From the IMG/VR virus record IMGVR_UViG_3300017735_000040, positions 1 through 35,542 of that record: a stretch of 35,542 bases of DNA; one strand, 5' to 3'. A model generated the notes under the pieces. The model did not search any database, was not told where the DNA came from, and saw nothing but the letters and a program-made list of their open reading frames with translations. Of the stretch, positions 2,533-11,387 are shown in pieces (the stretch's first letter is position 1; every line of letters begins with the position of its first letter). The stretch is from a virus. The position numbers and the translations under genes are program-made.

Positions 2533-3792
2533 TTAAGCTATTCCACGCAATCCGCGCTTGATTGGTGCGCCCCAATCAGTTTTCTCGCTACGACCAACTG
2601 CTAAATATCTGAAAGCATCTGCACCATGAGACGTCCAATCATGCAATGGCCTGCCTCGCCAAGTTTTAAGTCTTTCGTCAAATTCTCTACGATATTGAAG
2701 TAATGCTTCAACACCACGCTCGCATTTATCTTGATCGAACCAACACTTATTTATCATAGACCTTGCTGCTTGAATGCCGTCATCAACTCCTAGCATAGGT
2801 GCAATTTTTACGTTTCGCACTCCCAATGAGTCGAGTGTTTCGAGGCGACTTTTCCCTGTTCCCAACTCTTTAACTCGTACGTCATGTGGCAAAATGTGTT
2901 GTTCGTAATGGTATTTTTTTTCAGATAATGCTTTTGCATAATGTTCTAAACCTACTCCACTATTTTCATAATAGTCAATTAAATGAACTTCTTGCCCAAC
3001 GTACTGGGCAAACCATATTGCAGTGCTATCGCCAATTCCTAAGTCCCATGCCGTTACAACGCCTACTGCAGGATCATAAGGAACTCCAGAAATTCTGCCT
3101 TCAGAAGAACAAGTTTTAATTTCTTTAGCATAATAAGCGCCTTGTATTGCAGCTTCGAAACTGCACTCAAATTCTTGTTCAAAACGGTCTTCGCCCATAG
3201 CCTTTTTAGCTTCTTCAAGCTCGTCTGGATCGAGCAAACCTGTTTCTGAAGACTTATACATAGCGGTAAACCAATTAGGGTTATTTTTGCCTTGGATGTA
3301 AGTATCGTAAAATTGGTTTTTACCTTTTGGCGTACCGATAAATGTTGCTTTTCCTTTTCGATCTGCAAGCGCTGGGCGAATTACAGTAGGCCAAGCACGT
3401 GCTGGAAAGTCTGCTGGTTCGTCAAGTACAACATGGTCAAAATAAAGCCCGCGAAGAGTGTCTGCGTTATCTGCACCAAATAACCTTATTCTTGCACCAT
3501 TTGGAAAATCTACACGCAACTCTGATGTATTGTAAGTTACGCCAGAAACGTCTTGTGTATATTCTCTCAAATAATCCCACGCGATTGCTTTAGCTTGACT
3601 GTAATAAGGTGCAATATAAGCGACGCGCACATTTGGCAGTGGTATTGTAAGAGCATCTTTTATTAAGTCATTAATTGCTGCTACAGTTTTCCCAAAGCGG
3701 CGATGTGCAATAATAACAGCAAAGCGCTCAGTTCTATTATGAAAAGCTTTTATTAACTTTCTTGGGCGGTAATTAATCGTCCGAACTGTCAT
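2533..3792 (-). CDS. terL: Terminase large subunit
   Basis: 419 residues, the ATPase-nuclease motor that packages DNA into the prohead. Visible motifs are a Walker A variant AHRRFGKT (residues 29-36), a Walker B run VVLDE (121-125) and a coupling motif IGTPKG (152-157). The RNase H-like nuclease half opens with AWDLGIGDSTA and closes with HDWTSHGADAFRYL near the C terminus, with acidic metal ligands. The length is typical for compact TerL proteins of short-tailed phages. The ATG at 3792 overlaps the end of the small-subunit gene by 20 bases. All core motifs look intact. Confidence 0.95.
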   Translation of the reverse strand: MTVRTINYRPRKLIKAFHNRTERFAVIIAHRRFGKTVAAINDLIKDALTIPLPNVRVAYIAPYYSQAKAIAWDYLREYTQDVSGVTYNTSELRVDFPNGARIRLFGADNADTLRGLYFDHVVLDEPADFPARAWPTVIRPALADRKGKATFIGTPKGKNQFYDTYIQGKNNPNWFTAMYKSSETGLLDPDELEEAKKAMGEDRFEQEFECSFEAAIQGAYYAKEIKTCSSEGRISGVPYDPAVGVVTAWDLGIGDSTAIWFAQYVGQEVHLIDYYENSGVGLEHYAKALSEKKYHYEQHILPHDVRVKELGTGKSRLETLDSLGVRNVKIAPMLGVDDGIQAARSMINKCWFDQDKCERGVEALLQYRREFDERLKTWRGRPLHDWTSHGADAFRYLAVGRSEKTDWGAPIKRGLRGIA

Positions 3793-4177
3793 CAGTTATC
3801 CATTTGTAAGCATGTACGTGTTCACCGGAAATAGTTTGCTCTTGTTTGTCTTTTTGACCAAGATATTGCTTTCCAAGCCAGACCAGCATGGTCGGATTAC
3901 CATTCTCAGCTGCTTGCCATTGCATACGCCTAAGCGACATTCTGCCTTCATCGTTGTGCCTTTTATAGAGGTCTACAAAATTTTCGTATCCTCTCTCTCT
4001 TAATCTACGCTTTAAAGTGGTGTCAGACATACCTAAAATGCTACATATTTCTGTCTGTGTGCATTGTATTCTAACCATATTAAGCAAACGATTAAAATCG
4101 TTTTCACTCAAGCCTTTAGATGGTCCTTTAGGTCCGCGTTTTTTACCTTCTGACTGATCGTCCTGTAGGTCTGCCAT
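3773..4177 (-). CDS. terS: Terminase small subunit
   Basis: 134 residues, immediately upstream of and overlapping large terminase. The N-terminal third is basic (GKKRGPKGPSKG). It is followed by a helix-turn-helix: FNRLLNMVRIQCTQTEICSI then LGMSDTTLKRRLRERG, the DNA-recognition part expected of a small terminase. The C-terminal part includes LVWLGKQYLGQKDK, a motif seen repeatedly in TerS proteins (GKQxLGQ). It marks the phage DNA for packaging. A good promoter lies 30-60 bases upstream, making this the first gene of the late operon. Confidence 0.88.
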   Translation of the reverse strand: MADLQDDQSEGKKRGPKGPSKGLSENDFNRLLNMVRIQCTQTEICSILGMSDTTLKRRLRERGYENFVDLYKRHNDEGRMSLRRMQWQAAENGNPTMLVWLGKQYLGQKDKQEQTISGEHVHAYKWITDDSSDD

Positions 4178-4317: not shown

Positions 4318-4524
4318 ATGCAATTTACTACTGGATACGAAGAAAAAATCTTTAACGAAGCTGCTTATTTTGTAGCTGTACGCGGTAAAGGTGCAAATAG
4401 AATTCGCACAGAATGCACTTCATTCAACGAAGCAAAAGCTTGTGGTTCTAACCATTCTGATAAGCGCACTATGATTTATGCTGTAAATGAACTTGGATCA
4501 GCTGCTCATATCTGTAATGTTTGA
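4318..4524 (+). CDS. Small conserved phage protein (68 aa)
   Basis: 68 residues, MQFTTGYEEKIFNEAAYFVA at the start and KRTMIYAVNELGSAAHI near the end. The TMIYAV-NE-G pattern resembles small proteins of unknown function seen in many marine phages. It is the only plus-strand gene in this part of the genome and has its own promoter and a strong GGAGG site six bases before the ATG, so expression is likely. The 3' end overlaps the end of the oppositely oriented cytidylyltransferase gene by 27 bases. No function can be assigned. Confidence 0.8.
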   Translation: MQFTTGYEEKIFNEAAYFVAVRGKGANRIRTECTSFNEAKACGSNHSDKRTMIYAVNELGSAAHICNV

Positions 4525-4935
4525 TTTAGACTTTATGCTTTCAGCGTGTGCTACTCGTTTGCGTAAAAGACTTGAACTAAAATTATGCTTTCTTTTGTTG
4601 TAATGGATTAGCATATCTAAGTTTTTGCCTGTGAAGTCTTTGTCACGGTATTCTTCGCCGATTATCCTTACATCAATAGGATACATTTTAAAAATATCTA
4701 GCAGATCGTTTTCTGTTTCATATGGTATAATCTCGTCAACCGACTTAACTGCCGCTAGCTGTGCGTATCTTTCTACTAAAGTCTGTATAGGTTTATTTTT
4801 GTAATTGCGTTCTGTAGATGGGTTGACGTGAAGTCCTACGATAAGATGGTCACAAATAGCTTTAGCTTCGTGGAGCATTACAATGTGACCTGCGTGTAAC
4901 AAATCAAACGTAGAAGCTGTGAAGCCTGTTTTCAT
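4498..4935 (-). CDS. Cytidylyltransferase-like nucleotidyltransferase (TagD/RfaE-C type)
   Basis: 145 residues with the HxGH nucleotidyltransferase signature: GFTASTFDLLHAGHIVMLHEA (about 4-24; HAGH 14-17), then LIVGLHVNP, and DVRIIGEEYRDKDFTGK further on. This is the fold of glycerol-3-phosphate cytidylyltransferase and ADP-heptose synthase C-terminal domains, which activate a phosphorylated polyol or sugar with CTP or ATP. The terminal motif is NFSSSLLRKR rather than the usual GISTT, so substrate is uncertain. Its ATG overlaps the stop of the glycosyltransferase gene (ATGA), so the two are probably made together, suggesting that it supplies an activated donor. That link is inference. Confidence 0.85.
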   Translation of the reverse strand: MKTGFTASTFDLLHAGHIVMLHEAKAICDHLIVGLHVNPSTERNYKNKPIQTLVERYAQLAAVKSVDEIIPYETENDLLDIFKMYPIDVRIIGEEYRDKDFTGKNLDMLIHYNKRKHNFSSSLLRKRVAHAESIKSKSNITDMSS

Positions 4936-5858
4936 TTTACCTTTACCATTTTCATTCCGTAATCTTGCACTGTTCCGTTAAAATCAACGTCTGTTTTTCT
5001 AATTAGTTTTTGCTTTTTAAAGCGATTATAGTCTACATGATGATGCCATCGCCCGTATTTTTTAACTAACTTTGAACAATCGGGATGCACGCGAACTTGC
5101 ATTTTAGATTTTTCTAGTGTGCCAGTGTCAGCATATCTTTCGCCGTCTTGTACCCTTCCCTCTGCATGGTAAAATTCATCTGTATTGCCTCCCTTCATTA
5201 CTTGAGTGTTGGTTTTTTCTTGTAAAAATGCATTGAACTGTGTTGTGCACCAACCTGACTTAAGTATGTCTAGTGACAAAATTGTATCTTCGTTGTATCG
5301 GCCACGCCATCTATATTTAAGCTCGTTTCGGATCAAGTTGCAGCTATAAATTCGTGTATTAAGCACAAAAGGCGGCAAGCGCTTTTTGCGAGGTGCAAAC
5401 ATCATATAGTTAGGCCCAGCCATACCTATATTTGTATACCTCTGTACAAAATCTTCCATTACACGAAAGCACGTACCATCGGTTACTTTAATTTGTAGAT
5501 TTTTATTAAATCGGTGAAAATATCGTATGTTGTCATCCATAACCCAATGCCAATTTTCACCATTTTGTTTTGAATGTTCCCAAGCAAAATTTCTAGCTGG
5601 GCCGGGTCCAGTAGATTTCGTCATGCCAAAATTATCACAAAGCTCGTATTTTTCCTTAAAAGACATATCTAGCTTAAGTACAGTAGTAGATAAATCCCAA
5701 TGTTTTACTGCTTTGTTGTACAAATCTACTTCTTGCGGCTCAACTATAATAAAATGTGGTACCTTCATAAAAGTAAGCGCTTTTGAAGTCATCATATACT
5801 CATGACGGCCCTTACTTGGGATATAAAGTGAAAAATTAGGCTGCATCGTCTGTGCCAT
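4932..5858 (-). CDS. Glycosyltransferase, TET-associated (TAGT)-like
   Basis: 308 residues. The N terminus has YIPSKGR (12-18), then GPGPARNFAWEHS (84-96), HWVMDDNIRYF (104-114, with the metal-binding acidic pair D108-D109) and RYNEDTILSLDIL (187-199). This is the arrangement of the TAGT family, GT-A glycosyltransferases found in phages beside TET/JBP dioxygenases and thought to glycosylate modified bases in DNA. No TET-like gene or cytosine methylase is visible here, so the acceptor is unknown. It lies between a ParB-like gene (22-base overlap) and a cytidylyltransferase gene (4-base overlap), which suggests one modification unit. ATGs at 5858 and 5846 are both possible. Confidence 0.8.
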   Translation of the reverse strand: MAQTMQPNFSLYIPSKGRHEYMMTSKALTFMKVPHFIIVEPQEVDLYNKAVKHWDLSTTVLKLDMSFKEKYELCDNFGMTKSTGPGPARNFAWEHSKQNGENWHWVMDDNIRYFHRFNKNLQIKVTDGTCFRVMEDFVQRYTNIGMAGPNYMMFAPRKKRLPPFVLNTRIYSCNLIRNELKYRWRGRYNEDTILSLDILKSGWCTTQFNAFLQEKTNTQVMKGGNTDEFYHAEGRVQDGERYADTGTLEKSKMQVRVHPDCSKLVKKYGRWHHHVDYNRFKKQKLIRKTDVDFNGTVQDYGMKMVKVK

Positions 5859-6501
5859 TTACTCTGTAAGCATTTAAGTCTTCTTTTATATTTTCGGGAT
5901 AACGAATAAATCGCGTACTTTCTGTAAGTTTTAAACCTGTTTTTTCTGCAAATTCGTCAACGTCTTCTTGGTTATCGAAATGCACTTTAATTGTACGAAA
6001 ATAATTTATATCTTCGTTATCGTATTCTGGCATGTCCTGCCATTCATCAAACGCATTCGTTTCACCGAGGTCTTTATCTAAAAATAAATCTGCAAGCTCA
6101 TCCATGCCAAAACCAAGTTTTGTTACATCAAACTGGTCAAACTCAAGTTGTTTAATTTCAACTTTAAGTAACTCTTCGTCCCATGTAGAATTTTCTGTAA
6201 GTTTGTTATCAGCAATAACGTAAGCTCGCTTTTGAGCGTCTGACCATCCTGTTGCAACCATGGTTGGCACTTTTTTGAGCTCTAACTTTTGCGCTGCCAT
6301 CAAACGACCATGACCTGCAATCAGTGTATTATCTTCGTCTACCAGTATGGGAACTGTAAATCCCCACTCTTGTATACTTGCGGCAATTTGAGCAACTTGT
6401 TCTTCGCTATGAACTCTGCTGTTACGAGCATAAGGAATAAGTTTACTCGTATCCTTCATAGTAATTTCAGTTGCAGGCCACTTTTTTTCTTTGTTTGACA
6501 T
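5836..6501 (-). CDS. ParB/Srx-like N-terminal domain protein
   Basis: 221 residues with a ParB N-terminal domain. It shows LIPYARNSRVHSEEQVAQIA (21-40), SIQEWGFTVPILVDED and the conserved box LIAGHGRLMAA (60-70; GHGR at 63-66), followed by VIADNKLTEN. In phages this domain often accompanies DNA-modifying enzymes; it can act as a CTP-dependent switch or nuclease, and the sequence does not show which. The C-terminal half (NYFRTIKVHFDNQEDVDEFAEKTGLKLTE) looks like a separate small alpha/beta domain. It overlaps the following glycosyltransferase gene by 22 bases. Confidence 0.88.
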   Translation of the reverse strand: MSNKEKKWPATEITMKDTSKLIPYARNSRVHSEEQVAQIAASIQEWGFTVPILVDEDNTLIAGHGRLMAAQKLELKKVPTMVATGWSDAQKRAYVIADNKLTENSTWDEELLKVEIKQLEFDQFDVTKLGFGMDELADLFLDKDLGETNAFDEWQDMPEYDNEDINYFRTIKVHFDNQEDVDEFAEKTGLKLTESTRFIRYPENIKEDLNAYRVNGTDDAA

Positions 6502-6502
6502 T

Positions 6503-6964
6503 TTACGAGTTCCTGTATGGTTTTAAATCAGTTTCAGAAATTAGATTTTTTTCTATGAGAAACTCTGCATATTTCCCTGAAACATATTTTTCATCAACTG
6601 GTTCTTTTCTCTTTATTCTACCAGCATTAATTTTAAAAACATCGAGCTTTGGCGAAAACTCTTCTGAATTTTCTAAAAGCTCTTTTTTGATTTTGTCTCT
6701 GTTTTCCTTAATGCCTTTTACAAACATATTAATGGTTGGCCATCTGCGACTTACTTGATTTTTCCGCACATATTTTGCAGCTTCATCTAAAACCCATTTA
6801 AGCCCACCTTCGTTGGTAGATGGGCATTCGCTGTTAATGTCTTCAACCATAAGTAACATTTCTTCACGGCTGGCGTCTTTATCGAGATGGCTAGGTGCTT
6901 CATATCGTTTTAAAAATTCAAGAAGCCAATTTGCAATAATTCTTTTTCTGCTATCATAATCCAT
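6503..6964 (-). CDS. Protein in lambda P position (possible helicase-loading partner)
   Basis: 153 residues from the ATG at 6964 (MDYDSRKRIIANWLLEFLKR), helical and charged, with no Walker motif. This start overlaps the end of the O-like initiator by 11 bases and has GGGGA about nine bases upstream; a longer frame begins at 6991. The region WPTINMFVKGIKENRDK recalls replisome-associated phage proteins, but I do not recognise the family with confidence. Overlap with an O-like gene is the arrangement of lambda O and P, where P loads host DnaB, so a loader role is a positional guess. The ParB-like gene follows after one base. Confidence 0.6.
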   Translation of the reverse strand: MDYDSRKRIIANWLLEFLKRYEAPSHLDKDASREEMLLMVEDINSECPSTNEGGLKWVLDEAAKYVRKNQVSRRWPTINMFVKGIKENRDKIKKELLENSEEFSPKLDVFKINAGRIKRKEPVDEKYVSGKYAEFLIEKNLISETDLKPYRNS

Positions 6965-7724
6965 TGTTACTAATCCCCAAAATGCCACCACTTAAAAGAC
7001 TGTGCAGATATTCTGAGGAAGTTTCTTTTTGCTCTTTAAAACTTACCTCTTCGTCATCCCAATGACCTCCATTAAGCCACGTTGAAGGGTTTAATATGTA
7101 TTTTTTTTGCCTTTCTTCTTTTTTACAAAGATCAGCATATTTATTAACACCAGCCATAATAACACTTCCGCATACCATATTGATCGCTTTGATAAATGCT
7201 TTTTTAGCCGTTTGTTTTCCCGTTTTTTTAGGATACCTTTCCCAAAAAAAGCCAAACGAAATATCTATCTCTTCTTCTGTATATCCACGATATTTTTTAA
7301 AAGATAAGTTAGCATTTATAGGATCGTCATTTATAACCTTTATAAGGTTATCTTTTATAAGGTTATTATTTACAAGGTTATGGTTGTTAAATAAGTTTAC
7401 ATCCTCATGTAAAATATTTTTACTAGGGATGTCTGATTTTTTTACATCACTGCCTTTGAGAAAAAGTTTATACTCACAGCTTGTATTTGAGCCATTATCT
7501 CTTGCTCTGTTGGTGGCATCAATAAAGCCTTTATCTTTTAAAACACCAATATGAGTTATGACCGATTGGCGCGTCATTTCACATAATTTTGCCAATCTGT
7601 TATGACTTGGAAAACATGCACCGGTTTCATGGTTGTAATGGTCTGCTATCCAATAAAGAACTATTTTGGTAGCTGGCTTCAAACCAGTTTGCTGCATTGC
7701 TAGAGCGGTCATATAGTGCGACAT
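6954..7724 (-). CDS. Replication initiator, lambda O-like (winged-helix)
   Basis: 256 residues. Residues 1-95 form a winged-helix domain of the phage replisome-organiser type (MALAMQQTGLKPATKIVLYW-like opening, then CFPSHNRLAKLCEMTRQSVI and LKDKGFIDATNRA). A low-complexity Asn-rich linker (about 110-137) is encoded by DNA repeats. The C-terminal part has FFWERYPKKTGKQTAKKAF and NPSTWLNGGHWDDE, typical of O-like/DnaT-like replication proteins. It would bind the origin and recruit the host helicase. A GGAG eight bases before the ATG at 7724 supports this start. A promoter and an inverted repeat lie upstream. The iterons inside the gene suggest that it carries its own origin. Confidence 0.82.
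   Translation of the reverse strand: MSHYMTALAMQQTGLKPATKIVLYWIADHYNHETGACFPSHNRLAKLCEMTRQSVITHIGVLKDKGFIDATNRARDNGSNTSCEYKLFLKGSDVKKSDIPSKNILHEDVNLFNNHNLVNNNLIKDNLIKVINDDPINANLSFKKYRGYTEEEIDISFGFFWERYPKKTGKQTAKKAFIKAINMVCGSVIMAGVNKYADLCKKEERQKKYILNPSTWLNGGHWDDEEVSFKEQKETSSEYLHSLLSGGILGISNNGL
7333..7388. repeat. Iterons: three AAGGTTAT copies at 15-bp period plus one inverted copy
   Basis: AAGGTTAT occurs at 7344-7351, 7359-7366 and 7374-7381, exactly 15 bp apart, and its complement ATAACCTT at 7333-7340 pairs with the first copy around a 3-base centre. The flanks are very AT-rich. The repeats encode the Asn-rich linker of the O-like protein. In lambda and relatives the replication origin is a set of iterons inside the O gene, so this is the best origin candidate in the window. 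Confidence 0.75.
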
Positions 7725-10388: not shown

Positions 10389-10697
10389 ATGTGGTCTAAT
10401 CCTAAAAAACCAAAGGAAAAAAAAGATGGAAACTATTTGCAAAAAGTGCGGCGGAAGAGGTGTTGTATTTGTGAGCGATTTGGAGAAGTCCAGCAAAGCC
10501 CAACAACAGCGCACCATCCGATACATGATAGGTATAGCCGTGCGAAGCGAGGTGACAGAACTGCAATCCCGCTTTGCGAAGGTCATCACCAAGGTCTTTG
10601 GGACAAAAGCAAAGTAGCAATCCACAAAGAGCCAAAAAAATGGCGAGAATTATACGGGACTGATTTTTCTTATTCACAAAAAAATTTAGAAACCTAA
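10389..10697 (+). CDS. HNH-type nuclease, Ref-like (RecA-dependent nuclease family)
   Basis: 102 residues. The core is RRKRCCICERFGEVQQSPTT, then AHHPIHDRYSRAKRGDRTAI, then PLCEGHHQGLWDKSK. It shows a CxxC zinc knuckle (CCIC), the histidine pair AHH and the HH of EGHHQG, as in the HNH fold of phage P1 Ref and related phage proteins, which cut DNA in RecA-made D-loops. This fits the recombination operon. The last 12 bases overlap the 3' end of the convergent HAD gene; no terminator is visible between the two operons. Confidence 0.8.
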   Translation: MWSNPKKPKEKKDGNYLQKVRRKRCCICERFGEVQQSPTTAHHPIHDRYSRAKRGDRTAIPLCEGHHQGLWDKSKVAIHKEPKKWRELYGTDFSYSQKNLET

Positions 10698-11387
10698 ATC
10701 ATATAAAATCTTGTGAGTATCTTTCCAATTTTTAACAGAGTAACATTGATTTTTATTTAGTAACCTCGACAAAGGGAAGTCATTGCCTTCCTCTTGCATT
10801 TTATCACCAAAAAATTTGACAGAATTTTTATCTACATAGTTAAGCACTACCGCTTTACTCATATTACTAGGCATTAAATCAATACCAGTTTCACCTGCAA
10901 CTCTTGCAACTAAATTTATAAAATTTTTATTTATTTTATCCGCAATAGTTTTGCGTTCTTTTGTAGCTTCATCCCATGCTACATAGTGACGTCTTTGCTC
11001 TTTTGAAGCATTTCTGCCAAGAATACTAAAATTGCACATTCCTATACGATCATCAAAATGTTTTCCTGTTCGATGTGGAAAAGCGCTGTCTTGTAAATAA
11101 TTTTTCAAATAACCTTTTACTGATCTTTTTAATGCCCAATCGCTTTGATGTTTTGTAACTCCATTTTGAACTACGTGTGCGCCATTACATGCAAATACCC
11201 ATTTTGAACTATAGCACAGGTGACAGCCAATTTGGTTTTTTATGTTTTCGTAACTTGCACCCGAAACAATAGCACATTGGTTTTGCAAAAAAACTTTAAT
11301 TAAATATTTTTTAAAGCTTTTATCAATTTTTTCAGAACTATTAGTAAGCGTTCCATCCATATCAAATATAAGTATTGGGTCGCTCAT
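10686..11387 (-). CDS. HAD hydrolase resembling eukaryotic-type phosphomannomutase (PMM)
   Basis: 233 residues, close to the 245-250 of PMM enzymes. Motif I is FDMDGTLT (8-15; nucleophile D9, acid/base D11), followed by SGASYENI, FACNGAHV (65-72) and RIGMCNFSILGR (114-125), matching the PMM substrate-binding RNGMLNxSPIGR. Near the end FFGDKMQEEGND (192-203) matches the PMM loop FFGDKTxxGGND. PMM interconverts mannose-6-P and mannose-1-P, feeding GDP-mannose synthesis; a plain sugar phosphatase is also possible. The start has GGAG five bases upstream and lies inside the end of rusA. It is the last gene of its operon. Confidence 0.8.
   Translation of the reverse strand: MSDPILIFDMDGTLTNSSEKIDKSFKKYLIKVFLQNQCAIVSGASYENIKNQIGCHLCYSSKWVFACNGAHVVQNGVTKHQSDWALKRSVKGYLKNYLQDSAFPHRTGKHFDDRIGMCNFSILGRNASKEQRRHYVAWDEATKERKTIADKINKNFINLVARVAGETGIDLMPSNMSKAVVLNYVDKNSVKFFGDKMQEEGNDFPLSRLLNKNQCYSVKNWKDTHKILYDLGF

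Follow-up and report, generated by a model that had tools for sequence, protein, structure and literature searches.

The window, the whole stretch of 35,542 bases analysed here, is an IMG/VR virus record with a 123-bp terminal direct repeat, and because of this repeat it is probably the complete circular genome, 35.5 kb in length, of a small marine bacteriophage. It encodes a portal, capsid, and adaptor of the SU10 type. Three overlapping open reading frames (ORFs) on the minus strand encode a ParB-domain protein, a TAGT glycosyltransferase, and a nucleotidyltransferase (NT), with overlaps of 23 and 4 bases, and are followed by genes for a probable terminase small subunit (TerS) and then the large subunit (TerL) (Table 1). 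All three genes lie where the initial annotation had placed them. Identical gene order was found in independent contigs, so the arrangement is not a product of chance.

Table 1. Features of the cassette and related loci in the window
Feature	Position	Strand	Evidence
ParB-domain adaptor protein, 221 aa	5836..6501	-	PF02195 E=4e-7; phrog_620, phrog_498; AlphaFold model
ParB/sulfiredoxin-type N-terminal domain, residues 1-145	6067..6501	-	GHGR box 6304-6315
C-terminal WMPE domain, residues ~150-215	5857..6054	-	TAGT-associated; invariant residues, fusion forms
TAGT glycosyltransferase, 308 aa	4932..5858	-	PF20691 E=5e-40; phrog_842; DDN at 5529-5537
HxGH NT, TagD/HldE-C/PCYT2 type, 145 aa	4498..4935	-	PF01467 E=1e-15; phrog_7878 E=4e-35; HAGH 4885-4896
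Probable terminase small subunit (TerS), slot border	3773..4177	-	phrog_606 E=8e-5; kept after swapped cassettes
Terminase large subunit (TLS, TerL)	2533..3792	-	phrog_2 E=1e-39; PF03237
Phosphomannomutase (PMM)-like HAD protein, possible sugar-phosphate enzyme of the pathway	10686..11387	-	PF03332 E=3e-24

The PMM-like HAD protein is of eukaryotic type, which is unusual for a 35-kb phage; it was rejected as an obligate partner of the cassette, being absent from near-identical NT-bearing relatives (e.g., L002). Between NT and TerS, on the opposite strand, sits a 68-aa ORF (4318-4524, +) without a Pfam match, which is present in most window-type relatives and also lies beside a ParB-Mom pair (L139) and a ParB-SpeD pair (L133).

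The 308-aa protein scores 138 bits against PF20691 (cut-off 27.5), which bears out its initial assignment to the TAGT family. Its AlphaFold model (pLDDT 89.5) gives weak but significant matches to GT-A glycosyltransferases, mostly enzymes with protein or glycan substrates, in agreement with the GT-A fold published for the T6 TAGT (PMC13216743); a sequence search against solved structures gave no match. Residues D108, D109, and N110 (the DDN motif, 108-110) and R187-T192 (RYNEDT) are invariant among 39 TAGT sequences. The T6 enzyme puts a second glucose on hmC DNA (glucosyl-hmC) that is made via another route, and a 2026 paper counts 288 phage genomes that carry a TAGT of undefined function but no other T-even glucosyltransferase (PMC13216743). 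From its family and its genomic slot, the window TAGT is predicted to transfer a sugar onto DNA. In one related locus (L080:5992-8477) TAGT is fused with a SAM methyltransferase domain and the next gene encodes an NDP-sugar epimerase, which suggests a methylated or rare sugar there.

The match of the ParB protein to PF02195 exceeds the curated cut-off, and the GHGR box occupies residues 63-66. Over about 140 residues its AlphaFold model resembles CTP-binding ParB and Noc structures, and also KorB and PadC; other phages carry this N-terminal domain in fusions with methyltransferases. The C-terminal ~65 aa carry the pattern W-x-x-M-P-E-[FY]...HF...F..L..Q..T.KTKSIWYP, for which there is no Pfam model and which we call the WMPE domain. 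W154, M157, P158, F184, and P202 are invariant among 38 WMPE sequences, and the region is modelled with low to moderate confidence (pTM 0.55).

WMPE occurs in four arrangements. It is found C-terminal to the ParB domain, as in the window; as a separate small gene just 5' of TAGT (L035, L040, L078, L079, L221); as an N-terminal fusion to TAGT in the Vibrio phages 1.124.O and Kuja (by profile) and 1.076.O (by inspection); and within a single 673-aa ORF that joins ParB, WMPE, and TAGT in a triple fusion (L243:2270-4291). In Pectobacterium POP12 and in T4-like phages of Aeromonas, tblastn finds a match to WMPE inside or just before the TAGT gene. From this pattern we infer that WMPE is a partner-specific docking domain for TAGT. 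In three further loci (L230:6151-7008, L234:200-877, L252:6394-7071), all with TAGT downstream, the ParB profile does not detect the N-terminal region to which WMPE is attached.

Among 80 viral loci on contigs encoding a close TAGT, a gene matching the window ParB protein, in some cases through its C-terminal part only, is found upstream of TAGT in 74 cases. The remaining six loci are cut off there, with TAGT starting no more than 291 bases from the contig start. After clustering at 70% identity, WMPE adjoins or is fused to TAGT in 50 of the 56 TAGT clusters with room upstream. Of the six clusters without it, one is L244 and the other five form part of a second TAGT branch. TAGTs of this branch, too, are found next to ParB in several loci (L156: PF20691 E=1e-33), the C-terminal region of that ParB being a different one. 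On these comparisons the conserved unit is the ParB+TAGT pair, linked through a shared domain, and not the trio. The cassette of three genes proposed in the initial annotation thus does recur, but its core is the pair, NT being absent near TAGTs 85% identical to that of the window.

The pair extends to cultured phages: ParB lies immediately 5' of TAGT, with a terminase nearby, in the Lactobacillus phages c5 and phi-jlb1, E. coli vB_EcoS-666R9, and halovirus HHTV-2, and in Nocardia NTR1 TAGT adjoins the terminase and the upstream gene is unassigned. The literature on HHTV-2 and L. delbrueckii phage DNA yielded no modification data, and we found no ParB-TAGT phage with measured chemistry. Across 53 dereplicated ParB-TAGT loci, the only widely recurrent neighbours are of terminase, portal, and capsid types, and a recurrent third gene acting as base modifier was therefore rejected. 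In one locus (L174:2992-5819) ParB-WMPE and TAGT are separated by a radical SAM/SPASM gene, whose product may carry out a base-modifying step there.

NT belongs to the PF01467 superfamily (58 bits, cut-off 21) and has the HxGH motif in the form HAGH (residues 14-17). The closest relatives of known structure are ethanolamine-phosphate and glycerol-3-phosphate cytidylyltransferases, and NT shares with TagD, the HldE C-domain, and PCYT2 a comparable size and the HxGH cytidylyltransferase-like fold. It falls far below the equivalog cut-offs of both TagD (TIGR01518, 58 bits against 165) and HldE (TIGR02199, 64 bits against 181).

NT is present in 18 of the 80 TAGT viral loci, in varied positions: 3' of TAGT (window type), upstream of ParB (L041, L053, L069, L080), about 3 kb upstream (L055, L057, L067), and on the other strand (L038). 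In L157, a histidine phosphatase-NT fusion lies between ParB and a branch-2 TAGT. NT is missing from L005, L103, and L104, which carry the 85%-identical TAGTs, and from all 50 TAGT loci taken from genomes. NT lies near ParB in 16 of 88 clusters with TAGT as against 0 of 67 without (95% identity, p=6e-5), and in 7 of 72 as against 0 of 49 at 80% identity (p=0.02); at 70% clustering the association is not significant (p=0.43). Homologues occur in 136 phage records, mostly without TAGT, and the closest cultured ones (58%) are in six Vibrio phages, each of which also encodes a TAGT. Judged by this distribution, NT is an optional, repeatedly acquired third gene, and its simplest reading is that of an accessory changing or securing the sugar donor.

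The position of the cassette, with ParB on one side and TerS and TerL on the other, corresponds to the known ParB-TLS type of locus. Such loci with DNA-modifying genes were described earlier (Iyer et al. 2013, as cited in PMC6536676); in that account, as in the window, the modifying gene is flanked by a ParB-like gene and a terminase, ParB is sometimes fused to the modifying enzyme, and targeting during packaging is suggested. The window differs in that the enzyme is a TAGT joined via the TAGT-specific WMPE domain, with NT in addition. Relative to ParB-TLS loci as cited in PMC6536676, the present analysis adds the WMPE domain, the ParB-WMPE-TAGT fusion, the swap between colinear phages, and the association with NT.

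The swap is seen in three marine relatives colinear with the window in the order RusA-NinB-SSB-ERF-gp157-repO-ParB-X-TerS (32-69% identity), ERF not being found in L112 and RusA lying beyond the available stretch of L109. Slot X holds TAGT and NT in the window. In L112 it is taken by a Pfam-confirmed N6/N4 (adenine/cytosine) methyltransferase that is fused to ParB, and in L109-L111 by an ABC-ATPase+GNAT protein. In L139 a Mom gene (PF25680 E=5e-52) follows ParB and precedes a TerS of the window's family. Among 80 loci with homologous ParB domains there are 44 ParB-methyltransferase fusions, called by a DPPY-type motif and with L112 as one further case, and several Mom genes, and a homologous ParB domain occurs with a C5-methylase in L155 (E=4e-54). 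The slot is thus interchangeable with known DNA-modifying enzymes.

We find no recognisable source of a modified base in the window. The genome has no matches to thymidylate synthase (TS; PF00303), for which control genomes were positive, to the C5-methylase and N6/N4-methylase families, or to Tet_JBP, the last a weaker negative since no control genome matched. A Pfam scan of almost all window proteins (the exceptions being a cut ORF at 1-522 and a 1295-aa fibre-like ORF) likewise found no TET, TS-type, or DNA-methylase family. The absence of such modifiers noted in the initial annotation is thereby upheld, with the same reservation for Tet_JBP. Related genomes are similar: none of the four families is present in 21 of 25 related IMG/VR records, which are 17-69 kb and may be fragments; across up to 29 such records these families occur only sporadically; and c5, phi-jlb1, 666R9, HHTV-2, and NTR1 have no TS, C5-methylase, or Tet_JBP matches, Tet_JBP again without a positive control.

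The initial annotation pointed to a TAGT without a visible TET. This is no anomaly, as ParB-TAGT phages generally have neither TET nor TS-type enzymes and the T6 TAGT uses hmC DNA that arises in a different way. The T6/T2 beta-glucosyl-HMC-alpha-glucosyltransferase shares PF20691, the PHROG family, and the GT-A fold with the window TAGT, but in T6 a dCMP hydroxymethylase and a first glucosyltransferase prepare the hmC DNA, and neither is detectable in the window. TET-TAGT cytosine hypermodification in phages was reportedly described by Iyer in 2013 and by Burke in 2021; such phages share TAGT with the window, whose genome has neither TET/JBP nor C5-methylase. The arabinosyl-hydroxycytosine phages RB69 and NP, like the window, combine sugar-activating genes with a DNA glycosyltransferase, but they use a 5-hodCMP synthase of the TS superfamily, of which none was found in the window (PMC13390438).

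We consider this locus to be probably, though with some reservation, a post-replicative, ParB-guided DNA-glycosylation cassette of the ParB-TLS kind, acting on a base that the phage does not oxidise. The pairing with ParB, the shared WMPE domain, and the exchange with DNA methyltransferases in one slot argue for DNA modification as the role of TAGT. Given its partners and its resemblance to the CTP-binding structures of ParB, Noc, and PadC, the ParB/Srx-type domain may sit on phage DNA, perhaps gated by CTP as in ParB and Noc, and WMPE, as the fusions suggest, would hold TAGT. Shortly before packaging, TAGT would then, judging by its family and slot, attach a sugar or alditol to a base, which presumably shields the phage DNA from host nucleases. 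Gene linkage suggests that NT makes the donor by using CTP or ATP to activate the phosphorylated form of a sugar or alditol. In relatives that lack NT, a nucleotide sugar of the host would serve instead. Because this phage and most relatives have no recognisable base oxidase, hydroxymethylase, or methylase, the acceptor could be an unmodified base (for example, at an exocyclic amine) or one that comes from a host enzyme or from an enzyme not recognised here. The proposal in the initial annotation that DNA may be decorated by an undescribed route stands. A point against our reading of the cassette is that characterised TAGTs add sugar to a hydroxyl and no source of a hydroxylated base is visible in the window.

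Direct glycosylation of an unmodified base without prior oxidation, with the ParB adaptor choosing the sites and with, for example, an exocyclic amine on adenine or cytosine as acceptor, is plausible because other enzymes beside this ParB domain act on ordinary bases; because characterised TAGT reactions use a hydroxyl, we rate it as less likely than not. TAGT may instead perform ordinary O-glycosylation of a DNA base after the host, or an unrecognised phage enzyme such as the DUF932 protein or the 162-aa protein (6503-6991), has oxidised or hydroxymethylated it, a serious possibility that we nonetheless do not hold to be the probable one. It would accord with the hydroxyl acceptors of known TAGT reactions (PMC13216743), with the TS-type enzymes of some ParB-less TAGT genomes that have a stand-alone or fused WMPE (G007, henriette, Kuja), and with several window genes of unassigned function. 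It fits poorly with the 53 dereplicated loci, where only ParB, terminase, portal, and capsid types recur widely, and with the sharing of the pair by phages of unrelated hosts, an archaeal one included, without TS, C5-methylase, or Tet_JBP matches. On another view, NT has nothing to do with TAGT, lies beside it by coincidence, and works in the surface or lipid metabolism of the host. This view draws on the many TAGT-less homologues of NT and on the absence of NT beside 85%-identical TAGTs (L005, L104) and at the genome loci; we find it doubtful in view of the several separate NT-ParB-TAGT arrangements, including the L157 fusion, the absence of NT beside any other ParB partner in the survey, and the six Vibrio phages.

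A protein or other non-DNA target, with ParB a mere neighbour or itself the substrate, seems unlikely. GREB1, a relative of TAGT, is reported to glycosylate protein, and the GT-A matches of the model mostly act on proteins or glycans; against this, sister phages carry a DNA methyltransferase or ABC-GNAT in the same syntenic slot, homologous ParB domains pair with Mom, a C5-methylase, and a DpdA-like enzyme, and the T6 TAGT modifies DNA (PMC13216743). The ParB domain could be more than a tether, because DNA nicking is reported for the ParB-methylase Bce_0392, and nuclease or NTPase activity for GmrS-type ParB folds (PMC5512222). These reports would fit a restriction-like pair, in which the ParB domain acts as a nuclease on DNA lacking the modification and TAGT labels the DNA of the phage as self. 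We regard such a pair as quite improbable, since the closest structural matches of ParB are CTP-binding ParB, Noc, KorB, and PadC and include no nucleases, and since the ParB gene persists alongside many unrelated modifying enzymes.

ParB-guided glycosylation of phage DNA can be tested in the small cultured phages that carry the core pair (c5, jlb1, 666R9, HHTV-2). Should TAGT prove to act on an unoxidised base, the reaction would be new to DNA chemistry and might provide an enzyme for labelling DNA in a single step, and direct glycosylation, if true, would form a new class of DNA modification in phages of Proteobacteria, Firmicutes, and haloarchaea. Carrying C-terminal modules that can be swapped, the ParB domain has the look of a general adaptor for the DNA-modifying enzymes of phages.

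Further loci in the survey show other genes after ParB. The ABC-ATPase+GNAT protein (phrog_11143; L109:4278-5375, L111:5543-6640, L197:2550-3620) is a candidate for an unrecognised DNA-acylating enzyme. A 278-aa protein in the DNA-modifier slot of L177 (1422-2258) has no Pfam or PHROG match. L189:3-3444 has a deazaguanine DNA-modification set after ParB, made up of a DpdA-like gene, FolE, QueD, and a QueE-like ORF. In L133:2989-4639, a ParB with a different C-terminal domain precedes an S-adenosylmethionine decarboxylase (PF02675), pointing to a possible polyamine-type base modification.
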